Below are positions 19,511 to 38,937 of a stretch of 64,000 nucleotides of DNA, in pieces. Position 1 is the first letter of the stretch. Each line of letters starts with the position of its first letter. The translations under genes and the position numbers were made by a program. The DNA lies in contig NZ_JARKMX010000014.1 in the NCBI RefSeq assembly GCF_029360705.1, positions 186,001 through 250,000 on the forward strand. Direction: 5' to 3'. This DNA is from Paraflavitalea pollutisoli (lineage in GTDB: Bacteria > Bacteroidota > Bacteroidia > Chitinophagales > Chitinophagaceae). The notes below the pieces were generated by a model. That model made no database searches, was not told the DNA's origin, and was given only the letters and a program-made list of their open reading frames with translations.

Positions 19511-20110
19511 ATGGCAAAGACTAAAACACCCGCGAAAAAAAAGCAGTCAACTGCAAGCAGTGGTGCCGCTAAAGGCAATACACAACTGGAAAAGTTCTTC
19601 CTCGATTCAATGAAAGATATTTATTGGGCAGAAAAAGCGCTGACCAAGGCCCTGCCCAAGATGCAGAAAGCTGCTACAACCGAAGAGCTGCAGGAAGCCA
19701 TCGGCACCCATCTCGTGCAAACCCAGGAGCAAGTAGGCCGTCTGGAGCAAGTATTCCAACTGCTGGGTAAAAAAGCCCAGGCAAAAAAATGCGACGCCAT
19801 GGAAGGCCTGATCAAAGAAGGAGAATCGATCATTGAAGAAACGGAAGATGGAAGTATGACCCGTGATGTAGGGATCATCGCTGCGTCGCAAAAGGTAGAA
19901 CACTACGAGATCGCTACCTACGGTACCCTGGTTCAATTGGCACATACCCTGGGACAGGAAGAGATTGCCGACATCCTGGCCACTACGCTGGACGAAGAAA
20001 AAGAGACTGACCTGTTGCTGACCGATATCGCCGAAAACAATGTTAATTGGGAAGCTGAGCAGGAAAATGGTGAAGATACAGATGACGAATCAACCGAGGA
20101 AGAAGAATAG
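19511..20110 (+). CDS. YciE-type ferritin-like domain protein (DUF892)
   Basis: A 199-residue four-helix bundle protein of the YciE/DUF892 family. After a basic, disordered N-terminus (TKTPAKKKQSTASSG) the domain begins QLEKFFLDSMKDIYWAEKAL and continues through ETEDGSMTRDVGIIAASQKVEHYEIATYGTL. The E and H residues at family positions (E in YWAEKAL, E-x-x-H-Y-E) suggest a di-metal site. The tail is strongly acidic (ENGEDTDDESTEEEE). Family members are induced by osmotic, heat or desiccation stress; the precise reaction is unknown. A paralogue lies at 34744-35418. A bidirectional terminator follows. Confidence 0.93.
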   Translation: MAKTKTPAKKKQSTASSGAAKGNTQLEKFFLDSMKDIYWAEKALTKALPKMQKAATTEELQEAIGTHLVQTQEQVGRLEQVFQLLGKKAQAKKCDAMEGLIKEGESIIEETEDGSMTRDVGIIAASQKVEHYEIATYGTLVQLAHTLGQEEIADILATTLDEEKETDLLLTDIAENNVNWEAEQENGEDTDDESTEEEE

Positions 20111-33898: not shown

Positions 33899-33908
33899 GC
33901 AAAAAAAA

Positions 33909-33930
33909 GACCGCGGTAACAACCGCGGTC
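33909..33930. terminator. GACCGCGGT hairpin, copy 1
   Basis: A perfect 9-bp stem (GACCGCGGT/ACCGCGGTC, loop AACA) preceded by A8 on the plus strand, so the U-tract is on the minus strand. The hairpin and about 25 bases downstream recur at 34665. Here it ends no intact minus-strand gene, which suggests it is part of a duplicated block. Confidence 0.75.
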
Positions 33931-34586
33931 AGGTGCTGAACATAGAAATACTCCGCTTAAAGGATGATTGAAATCCTACAGCATAGATCGCTGCACGAGG
34001 CCTTATCACGGACCCTATTGATACAACACCAATGAGTAGCTCAACGCAGGTGAAGTAACGCTTCACAGGAATGAAGCTGAAACATTTTATCACCTCCGTT
34101 CAGTGGGGTTAACAACTCAGCTGGTTTTTCTGATAAATGGCTTGTATGCGCAGACAGCGCTGCGCGGCTCGTTGAGGTACTCAATAAAGGCCGTCGTCCC
34201 ATCTTGGACACCATTGAAACACCAATGAAGGGCTGAATCAGCAGTACCCTAACCAAAAGCATTAATAAACCAGTGTGAATCAGACCGAACAACGGTCCAA
34301 ATTGAGTGTAAGATGTATAGACAAACGGTGAAGAATATTCCGTTGGTATCCTAAAACTATCTCATTTAAACGAGACCACCTAAATTACTTACCCCTTCAT
34401 CCTGTAATCACGGGAAAACAACAATGAAAAGCGGCGCCTTTGCCTGGCCAGCCCTCCGCCTCGATAAAACCGTCGTGCGCCAACATGATCTTACGGCAGA
34501 TGGCCAGTCCTGCACCGGAACTGGCGTATTTTTGGGGCATTTTATCCACCATGAGGAATATCCTTTCCGCATCTTCCGGCTCAAGA
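33931..34586 (-). pseudogene. Decayed partial copy of the receiver/kinase locus at 37.1-38.0 kb
   Basis: From about 34080 the sequence matches the region at 37130-37980. About 45 bases resemble the 3' end of the receiver gene (the minus strand reads ELLTPLNGGDK against EFLSKLNGGDK); most of the receiver gene is then missing. The 270-base spacer follows almost intact (compare 34140-34375 with 37530-37765), then about 190 bases of the kinase 3' end (34397-34590) at over 90% identity by eye. Reading frames are not functional. The first part (33931-34080) has no visible source. The kinase fragment ends at a junction with a receiver-gene tail (next entry). Confidence 0.82.
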
Positions 34587-34660
34587 AGCCGTTCACGATG
34601 AATAACCTGCTTGCCATGGTAGGAAGGCATGTTGGCATGGCCAGCGAAGTACCCCCCAAA
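34587..34660 (+). pseudogene. Orphan 3' tail of a second CheY-like receiver gene
   Basis: The plus strand encodes KKPFTMNNLLAMVGRHVGMA, closely matching EKPFRMKDLLEMVKKHIGMA of the receiver gene at 33536, with no upstream part of the gene. It is fused in frame to the antisense of the kinase fragment at AAGCCG, a hexamer present in both parents, so it formed by microhomology-type joining. Confidence 0.8.
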
Positions 34661-34664
34661 AAAA

Positions 34665-34686
34665 GACCGCGGTAACAACCGCGGTC
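34665..34686 (-). terminator. GACCGCGGT hairpin, copy 2: terminator of the YciE-type gene
   Basis: The same 9-bp stem as copy 1. On the minus strand it is followed by T7, about 60 bases after the YciE-type stop codon, so this copy is a functional-looking terminator. Flanks AGGTGC-x-GAA-x-ATAGAAATACT are shared with copy 1. Confidence 0.82.
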
Positions 34687-34743
34687 AGGTGCCGAAAATA
34701 GAAATACTACGAAAAAAGTCTGGTTGCATTCAATGCAATCCGG

Positions 34744-35418
34744 TCACAGCGTAACACTTCCGGCGCCTATGGCCTGTTTGTCCCAGGAGTAGCCGCCTTC
34801 ATGCTCAGCTTCGATATTGATATAAGACTCAGCGATATGCGTCAGCTGCTGGTCTGTATCTTCTTCTTCCTGTAAGGTTTTGTCGAGAATATCGGCCGCC
34901 CGCCGCATATCCATGGTTACAGCCAACTGCACCAATCCACCGTAGGTAGCAATTTCATAATGCTCTACTTTTTGTGCAGCAATGATCAGTGCGGCATCGC
35001 GGGTGAAACTTCCCTCCTCCGTTTCGCTGATGATGTTGCGCGCCTCCTTCAGCAAGCCGTCCATAGCGGCACAGGGCTTCGCCTCGGGTTCTTGTTTGAT
35101 AAGGCGGAATACCTGTTCCAACCGTTTTACATGCCGCTCTGTTTGCTGGCGATGCGTTTCAAAAGCATCCTGCAATTCTTCGGTGGATACCGCGCTTTTC
35201 ATTTCCTCCAACCCATTCAGCAAGGCCTTTTCTGCATAATATATATCCTTCAACTGATCGGTGAAGAACTTCTGCAGGTAGGAAGGAGACGTGCTGGATA
35301 TCGCTTCTTTATCTGCTTGCTGGCCGGTGATCTGGCTATCGGATGAGGTACCCGAAGATCCGCTCGCTTTACCGGAAGCAGCCGCTCTATTGTTTTTTGA
35401 ACTGGTGCCTGATTTCAT
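34744..35418 (-). CDS. YciE-type ferritin-like domain protein (DUF892), second copy
   Basis: A 224-residue paralogue of the protein at 19511-20110. After a longer Ser/Gly-rich disordered N-terminus (about 45 residues) the domain runs YLQKFFTDQLKDIYYAEKAL to AAQKVEHYEIATYGGLVQLA, keeping E in YYAEKAL and the E-H-Y-E block of the presumed di-metal site. The tail differs: GGYSWDKQAIGAGSVTL in place of an acidic run. It lies 80 bases downstream of the prion-like gene on the same strand, so they may be cotranscribed. A stress role is inferred from the family. Confidence 0.93.
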   Translation of the reverse strand: MKSGTSSKNNRAAASGKASGSSGTSSDSQITGQQADKEAISSTSPSYLQKFFTDQLKDIYYAEKALLNGLEEMKSAVSTEELQDAFETHRQQTERHVKRLEQVFRLIKQEPEAKPCAAMDGLLKEARNIISETEEGSFTRDAALIIAAQKVEHYEIATYGGLVQLAVTMDMRRAADILDKTLQEEEDTDQQLTHIAESYINIEAEHEGGYSWDKQAIGAGSVTL

Positions 35419-35498
35419 AGTTGCATCTTATTTCATAGTGATCGATAACAGCAAGATCAGGGAATACCCTGATCCTGCTGCTGTATTTATCACGGGGG

Positions 35499-36863
35499 TT
35501 ACCGGGAACTCTTTTTACCCGTGCCGCTGCTTTTGCTGCGGGCGCTGCTGGTATTGCTGCTGCCGCTGCGTTTACTGCTGCTGGTATTGCCCGCGCTGCC
35601 CGACGATTTGCCGCGGCCACTGCTGGCGTTGCTGCCACCTGACCGGCTATTGCTTTTGCCAGACTGGTTGTTGCTGCTGCCGGAACGACTGCTGGTGCTT
35701 CGTCCGCTGGTGCTGCTACCCGATCGGGAACTGCTGCCCGATGACCGGTTGCCGCTTTCGTTATCATCGTCCATGCCGTCGTTTTCATGGTAGTAGCGGC
35801 GGGAGTTATCGCTCTGGCTGTATTGGTCATTCATGCTGCCACGGCTGCCTTCATTGCCATAGCCAAACTCACCTTGCCGGTTGCGGTTGTGCTGTCCCAT
35901 TCCCCGCTGGTTTTCGTACCCGGCATGGTTGCCGTTGCCCATTTGATCGTCGTAGCCGCCAAAGCCGCCTTGCGACCCGCCAAAGCCACCAGTGCCCCAC
36001 TCATCGCCCCCAGTGCCGAGGCCACCGCCCTGGTTGCGTTGTGACCACTGGTTGCTTCCGCCCTGGTTACTGCCCTGTCCACGATAACCCTGGTTGCCAT
36101 AGTTCTGGCCTCCCTGGTTGTCGTAGCCTCCCTGGTTGCCATAGTCGCCCTGGTTCCATTGGTTGCGATTGTTACCCTGGTTGCGTTGCAGCCATTGGTC
36201 ATGGCCACCCTGCTGGCCGTATTGGTGTGAACCACCCTGGCCGCCGCCCTGGTTACCATAGCCCTGGTTGCCGTAACCACCCTGTTGGCCATATCCTTCA
36301 TCACCCTGGTTCCACTGATTACGGTTGCCACCCTGGCTGCGTTGCGACCACTGGTTGCTGCTGCCCTGGTTCCCATAATCCTGCTGACCACCTCCGTAGT
36401 TGCCATAACCTTGATTACCATAACCGTGATTGCCGTAGCCCTGGTTACCATAACCTTGCTGCCGGCCGCCTTGCATGCCACGTCCTTTGCTGTATTGGTT
36501 GCTGTCGTCCTGGTTACGACCACCGCCGAAACCGCGCCGGCTACGACGCTGGCGCTCCATGCCACCGCTTTGCTGCTGGTCATACCCGCCTCGCTCCTGC
36601 TGATAACGCCCCTGCATGTTTCCGTGGTTATCGTCATCATCTTCGTTCCGGTCATAATCGTCGTCATAATCTTCATTATCATCATCTTCGTCGCCATAGC
36701 GGCCCTGCAATTCATTGTCATCGTCCTCATCATGGTCGTCTTCGTCGTATTGCTCGGCATACTGACGGCCATATTCTCCTGCTTGTTGTCCACTGTTCCG
36801 TTGGCCATATTGTGGCTGGCGTGAACTGTTTTGTCCACTGGAACGTCTGTCTCTTGTTGCCAT
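35499..36863 (-). CDS. Prion-like, intrinsically disordered low-complexity protein
   Basis: A 454-residue protein with no signal peptide, membrane segment or known fold. It has four blocks: a Q/R/S-rich start; an acidic stretch (about 35-80) dominated by D, E and N; a central N/Q/G/Y-rich region (about 115-335) with repeated GYGNQG units and three related NQW-x-QRNQGG/NRNQWNQGD units; and a basic Ser/Gly/Arg/Lys-rich tail (RSGSSTSGRS, ending TGKKSSR). The composition resembles eukaryotic prion-like and RGG proteins that form condensates. The frame is supported by its leader at 36863 and by other frames giving unnatural compositions. It is followed by the YciE-type gene. Stress protection is inference only. 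Confidence 0.82.
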   Translation of the reverse strand: MATRDRRSSGQNSSRQPQYGQRNSGQQAGEYGRQYAEQYDEDDHDEDDDNELQGRYGDEDDDNEDYDDDYDRNEDDDDNHGNMQGRYQQERGGYDQQQSGGMERQRRSRRGFGGGRNQDDSNQYSKGRGMQGGRQQGYGNQGYGNHGYGNQGYGNYGGGQQDYGNQGSSNQWSQRSQGGNRNQWNQGDEGYGQQGGYGNQGYGNQGGGQGGSHQYGQQGGHDQWLQRNQGNNRNQWNQGDYGNQGGYDNQGGQNYGNQGYRGQGSNQGGSNQWSQRNQGGGLGTGGDEWGTGGFGGSQGGFGGYDDQMGNGNHAGYENQRGMGQHNRNRQGEFGYGNEGSRGSMNDQYSQSDNSRRYYHENDGMDDDNESGNRSSGSSSRSGSSTSGRSTSSRSGSSNNQSGKSNSRSGGSNASSGRGKSSGSAGNTSSSKRSGSSNTSSARSKSSGTGKKSSR

Positions 36864-37119
36864 AATCGATGAATTGATTTGTTAAGAATGAAAGTTTCAT
36901 ATGGTAATAATCCTGGCAGCCATTCCTGTAATTGATTACCCTCAACAGGTCATTCAGGCCACAGGTGTGCTGCCGATACAATTGTTATATTATGTAAAAA
37001 CCACTGCGTACCGCAGGTTTGGTGGGATGGGGCTCCAAGGCCTTTACAGGCTTGTTATAGCAAGCTGTCGCTATGCTGTAAGCGGCATAAATTTCATGCC
37101 TGCCAGGTAGGTAAGATGA

Positions 37120-37515
37120 TTACAGGTGCGGTTGTAATGTTTTATCACCGCCATTCAACTTTGATAAGAACTCAGCCAATTGCTGGATAGAACCTGGCTT
37201 TTGCAAACAGGAAGCGCCCTGCTTCATTGCCAGTTCTCTGGTAGTATCACTGAGGAAGTTTGAATACAGGATCACCTGCGTTTTATCGAGGTGGTGCATA
37301 TCGCGGATGATGCGGAGACAATCCATTCCATTCGACACGGGCATGTTGTAATCGATGAGGATAACGTCGGGTAATATTTCTCGCAGTAATTGACGTGCGC
37401 GCGACAGGGAATTGGCCCACACACAATAATGGGGCAATTGGGCCAATTGTATGGCTTGATCGAGCATGAAATATTCGTCCTGGTCGTCGTCAATCAATAA
37501 GATCAGTTGCTGCAT
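37120..37515 (-). CDS. Single-domain response regulator
   Basis: A 131-residue receiver: acidic pocket D9-D11 (LLIDDDQDE), phosphoacceptor D55 (DVILIDYNMPVSNG), switch Ser in VILYSNFLS, and Lys in SCLQKPGS. The C-terminus LAEFLSKLNGGDKTL is recognisable in the decayed copy at 34 kb. It lies downstream of a PAS kinase on the same strand, separated by a 273-base spacer. That spacer was copied along with the genes, so it may carry a promoter or processing site. The kinase is the probable phosphodonor. Confidence 0.92.
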   Translation of the reverse strand: MQQLILLIDDDQDEYFMLDQAIQLAQLPHYCVWANSLSRARQLLREILPDVILIDYNMPVSNGMDCLRIIRDMHHLDKTQVILYSNFLSDTTRELAMKQGASCLQKPGSIQQLAEFLSKLNGGDKTLQPHL

Positions 37516-37788
37516 CCTTACTGGCTTTTCTGATAAAATGGCTTGTATGCGCAGACAGCGTTGCGCAGCGCGTTGAGGTACTCAATAAAGGCCGTCGTCC
37601 AATCCTGGACACCATTGAAGGGCTGAATCAGCAGTACCCTAACCAAAAGCATTAATAAACCAATGTAAATCAGACCGAACAACAGTCCAAATTAAGTGTA
37701 AGATCTATAGACAAACGGTAGAAGAAATATTCCGTTAGTATCCTAAAACTATTGCATTTTTACGACACCACCAAAATAGGCTATCTCT
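37516..37788. other. Duplicated spacer between kinase and receiver genes
   Basis: A 273-base spacer with no gene. About 240 bases of it occur again at 34130-34400 with scattered substitutions and small indels. The unusually long gap inside a kinase-receiver unit suggests a separate promoter for the receiver. Confidence 0.6.
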
Positions 37789-38937
37789 TCATCCGGTAAT
37801 CAGTGGAAAATAACAATGAAAAGCCGCGCCTTTACCTGGCCAACCCTCCGCCTCGATAAAACCATCGTGCGCCAACATGATCTTACGGCAGATGGCCAGT
37901 CCCGCACCGGAGCTGGCGTATTTTTGGGGCATTTTATCCACCATGAGGAATATCCTTTCCGCATCTTCCGGCTCAAAGCCGGTACCATTGTCGGTCACAC
38001 TTATTTTGAAGAAGGCGCGTTGCCCCTCCTCATAAGGGTCGTTATCGGGCATCGTCACTGACTGGCTGGAGATCGCTATGCGCAAAGGTGCCTGGTGCGG
38101 CCGGAAGCGGATAGCATTGTTCATCAGGTATAGAAACAGGTAGTGCAGAATATCCTTATACCCATTGACGACGGGTAGCACTGCTGCAGCAACTGTTGCG
38201 TCACTGGACAACAATTTTTCTGTCAATTGCGCCGACACCTGTTGCAACACCTCATTCAGGTCAACTGGCGTGCCTTCGTCCATCGGTGCATGTATGCCCG
38301 ACAGCGCTACAATATCATCCAGTAACAGGTTCATGCGATTGAGTGAAGACTGCATGCGCCGCAGATTGGCCTTTCCGCCATCGGATAAAGACTTTGCCTC
38401 TGCCCGGATCAGCAATTCGAGCGAGGAATAGACATTGCGCAATGGCTCCTTGATATTGTGGGAAGTGATGTACGTGATCTGCGCCTGTTCTTCGTTGGCC
38501 CTTTCGAGCTGCTCGTATTTTTTCTTCAAGGCAATATTCAGCTTGTGCAATTGTTGTTCGGCCTTGATGCGGTGCGCCACATCGTGCATGATGTTCATGA
38601 TACCCAACAATTTGCCTTCTTCACTTTTTAAAGGGATAAAATGATTTTCGTAGTGCTGGCGGTTGAAGCGCTCCCGGTGTGCCGGTACAAAACTTTTAAT
38701 GCCGGAGAAGGCCAGCTCCATGGCCTGTAAAAGCTCCTTATCCTGCCGGCATTGCGGAAACACTTCCAACAGGTTTCTGCCCAGGATTTCCGCACCCCGG
38801 ATACCCGATACCATTTCTGCTGTGCGGTTCCAGGCGATGATATTCCACTGTAGATCAATGGCCATGATCCGATCGATGCTGCAATCATTCAGCATTTCGG
38901 CAAGAGCGGGGGATACCAGGTATTGGGGGGAAGACAT
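37789..38937 (-). CDS. PAS domain sensor histidine kinase
   Basis: A 382-residue soluble kinase. An N-terminal PAS domain (about 15-130: IDRIMAIDLQWNIIAWNRTAEMVSGI, ending GIMNIMHDVAHR) is joined by a coiled coil to HisKA with H160 in ITSHNIKEPLRN, where Asn follows the phosphoacceptor His in place of the usual Asp/Glu, and to HATPase_c (YLMNNAIRFRP, DNGTGFEPEDAERIF, GAGLAICRKIMLAHDG). No membrane helix is present, so the signal is intracellular. Its last 190 bases are copied at 34397-34590. The receiver gene downstream is the likely partner. Confidence 0.92.
   Translation of the reverse strand: MSSPQYLVSPALAEMLNDCSIDRIMAIDLQWNIIAWNRTAEMVSGIRGAEILGRNLLEVFPQCRQDKELLQAMELAFSGIKSFVPAHRERFNRQHYENHFIPLKSEEGKLLGIMNIMHDVAHRIKAEQQLHKLNIALKKKYEQLERANEEQAQITYITSHNIKEPLRNVYSSLELLIRAEAKSLSDGGKANLRRMQSSLNRMNLLLDDIVALSGIHAPMDEGTPVDLNEVLQQVSAQLTEKLLSSDATVAAAVLPVVNGYKDILHYLFLYLMNNAIRFRPHQAPLRIAISSQSVTMPDNDPYEEGQRAFFKISVTDNGTGFEPEDAERIFLMVDKMPQKYASSGAGLAICRKIMLAHDGFIEAEGWPGKGAAFHCYFPLITG

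Follow-up and report, generated by a model that had tools for sequence, protein, structure and literature searches.

A predicted disordered, prion-like protein in the yciG position beside a YciF-type DUF892 gene of Paraflavitalea pollutisoli

Results

Layout of the locus

The window, a stretch of 64,000 nucleotides from Paraflavitalea pollutisoli, carries on its reverse strand a gene for a 454-residue protein and, after a gap of 80 nt (35419-35498), a DUF892 gene:

35499..36863 (-): CDS of the 454-aa predicted disordered, YciG-like/hydrophilin protein, ATG start, stop codon included
36756..36863 (-): N-terminal R/Q/S segment, residues 1-36
36564..36755 (-): acidic block, residues 37-100, with xQGRY linkers common to KGG-bearing relatives
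36525..36539 (-): RRGFG, residues 109-113
35853..36470 (-): GYGNQG/NQW prion-like segment, residues 132-337
35754..35852 (-): short acidic linker, residues 338-370
35502..35753 (-): basic Ser/Gly/Arg/Lys tail, residues 371-454
35448..35481 (-): intercistronic hairpin in the 80-nt gap, stem of 15 pairs, loop of 4 nt, no T-run after it
34744..35418 (-): DUF892 gene, YciF-type ferritin-like helix bundle, second of the pair
34665..34686 (-): terminator-like hairpin, 9 pairs then seven T, after the DUF892 gene

The open reading frame described in an earlier note, with its acidic, N/Q/G/Y and S/R blocks, is confirmed at 35499-36863, and the gene occurs once in its own genome (8.76 Mb, 16 contigs). 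Aspartate and glutamate account for 29 of the 64 residues of the acidic block. The prion-like segment contains 69 G, 39 Q, 29 N and 17 Y, its other aromatics being 6 W and 3 F, while the 84-residue tail holds 38 S, 15 K/R and 0 D/E. The segment and its repeats stand as the note described them but with other dimensions: 206 residues instead of about 220, and, in place of three NQW/NRNQWNQGD units, NQW four times (at residues 170, 182, 234 and 271) and NRNQWNQGD twice (at residues 180 and 232). The net charge of the whole protein is slightly negative (NCPR -0.02).

The protein is predicted to be disordered, with no part expected to fold: AlphaFold2, given an alignment of 72 sequences, returned a mean pLDDT of 40.4 and 0 residues at or above 70, which bears out the disorder that the note had proposed to check. 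Pfam gave no match to the protein at E 1, NCBIfam none at E 0.1, and a PDB sequence search none.

GY-rich repeats occur in adhesive proteins, and a place at the cell surface or in the matrix, or an adhesive function, as in glycine-rich secreted proteins, was considered. A cell-surface fraction of Anabaena did contain YciG-like and YciF-like proteins, according to an excerpt of PMC4103569. However, residues 1-36 include only 1 I/L/V/M/C and form no hydrophobic N-terminal stretch; no secretion signal is visible, in agreement with the earlier note. The partner, moreover, shares the fold of YciF, which PDB titles term cytoplasmic or stress-related. A surface role is thus extremely improbable.

Upstream of the pair lie genes for a response regulator and a PAS histidine kinase. 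At 34135-34584 and 37536-37976 the window has direct repeats, about 450 bp long and split into three pieces of 91-95% identity. They contain the 3' end of the histidine kinase gene and flank the block of response regulator, disordered protein and DUF892, as if this block had been inserted or duplicated by recombination. A shorter repeat pair (85%) at 33902-33975 and 34658-34731 carries a GACCGCGG...CCGCGGTC terminator-like hairpin. A second DUF892 gene lies within the window at 19511-20110 and has no disordered partner.

A conserved pairing with YciF-type DUF892 genes

Searches with the whole protein recovered a single homologue from the four other genus genomes, a protein of 401 aa with matching blocks that adjoins a DUF892 gene and is called the sister below. 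Matches were found in 2/5 genus genomes, its own counted, and in 2/294 family genomes. A 29-residue N-terminal peptide was found in the window only, among 395 class genomes (the sister genome was unmatched there), and 20 stretches in a wider collection of genome contigs fitted a pattern, with 0 confirmed. Since these direct searches gave only the one genus homologue, the neighbouring DUF892 gene was used as bait, and this exposed the family.

The product of the neighbouring gene matches PF05974 at E 5.2e-50, and its model aligns with 2gs4_B, which has the YciF fold, at a TM of 0.94 normalised by target. Its identity is 42% over 165 aa to Escherichia coli YciF and 25% over 118 aa to YciE, and the PDB sequence search and the model agree on the YciF type. 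The stress gene reported beside the 454-residue protein is therefore of the YciE/F class but of YciF rather than YciE type. Beyond its own family, the model has a weak match to Dps proteins (E about 0.005).

In a survey of the family, 69/147 genomes matched DUF892 at E 1e-10 or better; an acidic, S/R/G-rich, low-hydrophobic ORF stood beside DUF892 in the best of the loci fetched from it. A scan of genome contigs with a DUF892 alignment confirmed 269 loci, the best 80 of which were kept as named loci (L041-L120); their titles are mostly Chitinophagaceae and Chryseobacterium. An ORF of the partner type lies upstream of DUF892 on the same strand in 71 of these best 80 of 269, by composition limits that were set only after inspection of partner sequences. 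The gap between the two genes has a median of 74 nt, with quartiles of 68 and 85 and a range of 8-328. The named loci contain 1606 ORFs of 80 aa or more, of which only nine outside the partners share their composition, and four of those (L049, L054, L064 and L067) resemble further family members by eye.

The nine named loci without a partner are L054, L067, L079, L081, L095, L099, L104, L108 and L112. Just 24 nt of room is present upstream of DUF892 in L079, and L054 has a partner-like ORF downstream instead. In L067 the DUF892 protein carries a long, disordered extension at its N terminus, and a KGG-type ORF is displaced to about 3.6 kb upstream. In L081 (Chryseobacterium sp. Leaf180) a KGG partner and DUF892 lie within one 425-aa ORF, the partner starting in a different frame; as this frame change may be a sequencing error, the locus was not used as evidence for fusion. 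The partnerless Chryseobacterium DUF892 genes of L099, L104, L108 and L112 have one or two upstream genes whose starts resemble CRP-family regulators by eye.

The family survey contributed 28 loci (29 fetched besides the window's own, minus L030, in which the script found no DUF892 ORF). A partner was present in 12 of the 28, 7 of these 12 duplicating named loci; L024, one of those lacking a partner, has only 213 nt upstream. As seven locus pairs are duplicated between the two collections, the partnered proteins number 77 distinct ones. Some are short or atypical (88 aa in L057, 111 aa in L063), and that of L114 is cut by the contig end.

In the DUF892 tree all 84 partnered tips, the window included, fall inside one clade of 94 tips (support 0.745), while 18 of the 28 partnerless tips fall outside it. 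The window clusters with its sister and with L042, L005 and L047 (support 0.946), and Niastella/Longitalea join next (support 0.924). The five other DUF892 copies of the genome have, by eye, no disordered partner of this type. An orthologous DUF892 is absent from 3/4 other genus genomes (best 53-57% identity), so the pair is dispensable there. Computation shows that the YciF-type DUF892 gene is directly preceded by one for a predicted disordered and extremely hydrophilic protein, and that the pairing is conserved.

Probable kinship with KGG/YciG proteins, and hydrophilin properties

PF10685 (KGG) was found in 45 of the 72 partner proteins scanned, a count that is probably low because a smaller Pfam scan missed L016, in which a KGG motif is readable by eye. 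That smaller scan found PF10685 in 6/10 proteins (L005, L006, L007, L011, L012 and L013), all duplicates of named loci that add nothing independent. Two Weeksellaceae-type partners, L114 and L116, contain long NYDRRHDNPGRPRGSRNGDGR repeats, and no KGG motif can be read in them by eye.

The window protein gave no PF10685 match at E 1 or E 0.01, nor did its sister L002 at E 1. Their kinship with the KGG partners therefore rests on a block of acidic stretch, linker and RRGF and on synteny. RRGF or RQGF[AGS] occurs in 49/72 partners, whereas 200 shuffles gave 0.6 on average and never more than 3, and the xQGRY linkers also occur in near relatives. Against a profile of the block built from 11 relatives, the window protein scored 69.6 bits (shuffle maximum 51.7, 0/500) and the sister 67.3 bits (shuffle maximum 56.2, 0/500), the shuffles being local, within 12 residues, and the block having been picked after looking at the sequences. 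On these scores we reject an origin unrelated to the KGG partners. We infer that RRGFG is a remnant of the first half of the KGG motif. In several Niastella/Longitalea relatives the first KGG site looks decayed by eye while the second is intact, which is a plausible intermediate.

An acidic head and a basic tail in the last fifth, in that order, are present in 67/72 proteins, the window's included; homologues with a conserved block order, which the earlier note had set as a check, thus exist. All 72 have more than 6% Gly and a hydrophilicity index above 1, the Garay-Arroyo definition of a hydrophilin as given in an excerpt of PMC3983491, and the window protein reaches 23.3% and 1.98. Its gene is directly upstream of, and on the same strand as, that of the YciF-type DUF892 protein, the arrangement by which a yciG-yciF pair is defined.

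The first-gene position is that of E. coli yciG, a KGG gene followed by yciF (DUF892) and then yciE. The gap to the DUF892 gene is 85 nt in E. coli and 80 nt in the window, with a hairpin in both, and the two proteins are close in hydrophilicity and glycine (1.67 and 23.7% in YciG). However, YciG has 59 aa, and the window protein differs from it by an undetectable KGG repeat and by the added acidic block, GYGNQG segment and S/R tail; in addition, no YciE-type gene adjoins the window pair. With the acidic KGG/S-R-G proteins of the Chitinophagaceae/Chryseobacterium type it shares position, acidic head, basic tail and gap hairpin, whereas 45/72 of these partners have a detectable KGG motif and most have no prion-like segment. 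By position and shared block the window protein may be called YciG-like, though not a member of PF10685, and it looks like a strongly remodelled relative of YciG. As to kinship, its relatives are bacterial KGG/YciG-type proteins, and nearness to the eukaryotic condensate-forming proteins to which its layout had been compared is not supported.

The tail composition and the acid-before-base order could also fit a role with nucleic acids: with its basic S/R/K tail and RRGF region attached to DNA or RNA, the protein, together with its ferritin-fold partner, would shield or compact the nucleoid during stress. The weak match of the partner to Dps proteins points the same way. Unspecific DNA binding by the whole protein is nevertheless disfavoured by the acidic block and the slightly negative net charge, and neither Pfam nor NCBIfam matched a domain; we regard this role as unlikely.

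Distribution of the prion-like segment

By an older rule a protein is prion-like if it has at least 30 Q/N in 80 residues. The window protein peaks at 34/80, so that the prion-like composition proposed in the note, together with predicted disorder, holds. Among 72 partners and 13 further rows, a scoring that left out L008, L009 and L016, at least 30 Q/N in 80 occurred only in the window (34) and in L017 (35). Counting N, Q, G and Y together, the peak per 80 residues is 67 in the window protein, 66-73 in the sister and eight Niastella/Longitalea loci, and 24-44 in the other named partners. At least 45/80 is reached by only 12 of the 77 distinct partnered proteins, the window included. The earlier description of the protein as rare in bacteria therefore applies to the GYGNQG segment but not to the type of protein, which is common beside this DUF892 subfamily.

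In Niastella/Longitalea a GYGNQG-type segment starts at residue 1, before the acidic block, while in the window, the sister and L017, and more weakly in L020, it follows the acidic block. L042 and L047, in the sister group to the window pair, are without it. The different placement in different lineages suggests separate gains as the simplest reading, with gain, loss and rearrangement also possible, and the GYGNQG part is a lineage-specific addition. Weak, low-grade tandem arrays in the DNA of the window gene point to slippage as a source of the segment.

Under another reading the FUS-type-like segment would be the main point of the protein, a condensate scaffold that drives a stress body, with YciG-like ancestry incidental. 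The N/Q/G/Y and Q/N peaks, the predicted disorder and the differing placement of the segment among lineages are in its favour. However, so few partnered proteins have a segment of this strength, and its lack in L042 and L047 means that the cassette exists without it; slippage alone, as the tandem repeats show, could produce such a segment. Condensation as the main function is accordingly quite unlikely.

Constraint on the reading frame

Compared with the same-genus homologue, 371 aligned codons differ at positions 1, 2 and 3 in 118, 111 and 213 cases, and 112 of the 213 identical residues use a different codon. The run RQPQYGQRNSGQQAGEYGRQYAE (23 residues, 15-37) is invariant in the homologue despite 9 silent codon changes, and the block order is retained between the two proteins. 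This frame evidence led us to reject an antisense ORF at 35291-36865 as the true gene.

These data also bear on whether the window protein is a decaying or neutrally drifting partner that lost KGG, grew repeats by slippage and retains little function. The undetected KGG motif, the low-grade tandem repeats and the missing DUF892 orthologue in 3/4 other genus genomes would be expected of such a protein. A frame kept open in two species, the third-position excess, the invariant N-terminal residues and the retained order of blocks argue against it, and decay seems very unlikely.

A hairpin between the two genes

The hairpin in the window gap has an MFE of -34.0 and a z of -6.29, and 0/200 dinucleotide shuffles fold as stably. 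A z < -2 was found for 60 of 64 gaps of 40-140 nt (those of the window and of 63 of the 71 partners) and for 36 of 134 control gaps (p 3.7e-17), the controls being other same-strand gaps from these loci, bounded by ORFs that were called on length only. The longest stem has a median of 14 bp in partner gaps vs 6 in control gaps, and the partner-gap stem ends a median of 28 nt before the DUF892 start. The hairpin of the E. coli yciG-yciF gap has a z of -3.7 vs simple shuffles.

In an alignment of 36 Weeksellaceae-type gaps, 10/11 pairs have two-sided changes and 94.9% of cells pair; 0/500 shuffles and 0/6 slid versions match this covariation. Relatedness among the sequences inflates the shuffle result, however, and the comparison with slid versions favours a structure that was itself drawn from this alignment. 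The hairpin is followed by at least 4 T in 38/64 gaps, the window not among them, so in the window partial termination is only one reading. Rfam gave no match over 34000-37600. In the literature searched, outside which the main yciGFE paper lay, we met no description of the hairpin, and we make no claim of priority.

The terminator scan in which the hairpin after the DUF892 gene appeared found 3 sites as a whole vs 3.8 expected from shuffles, and a sigma-70 promoter scan found 6 sites vs 3.2 expected, an uninformative result. Bacteroidetes-type promoter patterns had no match in the 256 nt upstream.

Discussion

The window protein is probably, with room for doubt, a YciG-like hydrophilin that acts with a ferritin-like partner under drying, osmotic or oxidative stress and to which a self-associating segment was added in some lineages. 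A role as protectant with an iron-binding partner is the most likely one. The stress or drying role, inferred in the earlier note, is now better founded, as the gene occupies the yciG position and YciG is reported to have protected lactate dehydrogenase on vacuum drying at 1:1 (excerpt of PMC3983491, reporting Reyes 2005). YciG is also named a hydrophilin in an extract of PMC5437024, and part of PMC5126674 describes three DUF892 proteins, likened to ferritins, that reduced the free iron of E. coli. The yciGFE genes are tied to acid and salt resistance in the excerpt of PMC4103569. From the portion of PMC7161692 at hand, YciG-type proteins are disordered and RpoS-regulated, and the KGG motif is without a characterised function. 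Two reports speak against the reading: in PMC7161692, YciG-type deletions in S. Enteritidis had no effect on motility, and an excerpt of PMC9262955 links PA2146, a KGG protein of Pseudomonas, to biofilm growth and not to other stresses.

In our preferred reading, the window gene would stand first in a stress cassette of two genes, of the yciG-yciF type, which are probably co-transcribed. Bacteroidota are not known to have RpoS, and the regulator would thus differ from that in E. coli. Upon drying, or when osmotic or oxidative stress sets in, the disordered protein would accumulate as a hydrophilin, a water-retaining shield against aggregation, while the DUF892 protein would bind iron and so limit oxidative damage. 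The hairpin between the cistrons may lower the second, and we infer that attenuation or mRNA processing there would leave the hydrophilin in large excess over the ferritin-like protein.

In the lineage of the window, the KGG motif would have decayed and the Tyr/Gly/Gln/Asn segment been gained. Its aromatics, with arginines, could serve as stickers, and the protein, at the concentrations reached under stress, may associate with itself in a dense phase or gel that might also contain the DUF892 protein. Condensation by the window protein is possible. A long aromatic segment is presumably unexpected in hydrophilins, with which the protein shares its glycine content and hydrophilicity but which are thought of as a soluble class. 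Another Bacteroidota protein, Rho of Bacteroides thetaiotaomicron, is reported to form condensates in an excerpt of PMC13269538; however, that Rho is a folded enzyme, while no part of the window protein is predicted to fold. We found no literature on condensation by such segments in Niastella or Chitinophagaceae.

A more speculative extension, which we regard as doubtful, is that a protein of the desiccation class, the YciG-like hydrophilin, repeatedly acquired FUS-like Tyr/Gly/Gln/Asn segments in Bacteroidota, by which a soluble shield would have become a stress condensate or gel that recruits the iron-sequestering ferritin-like partner, with the conserved RNA hairpin setting the ratio of scaffold to client.

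What had been an orphan prion-like bacterial protein now has a family and a partner, and a role that can be tested. KGG/YciG-type proteins were extended, in Chitinophagaceae and Chryseobacterium-type bacteria, to long proteins that are acidic, rich in S/R/G and in some cases prion-like. The gene pair occurs both with the prion-like segment and without it, and provides a natural comparison for asking whether condensation evolves for dry survival in bacteria.
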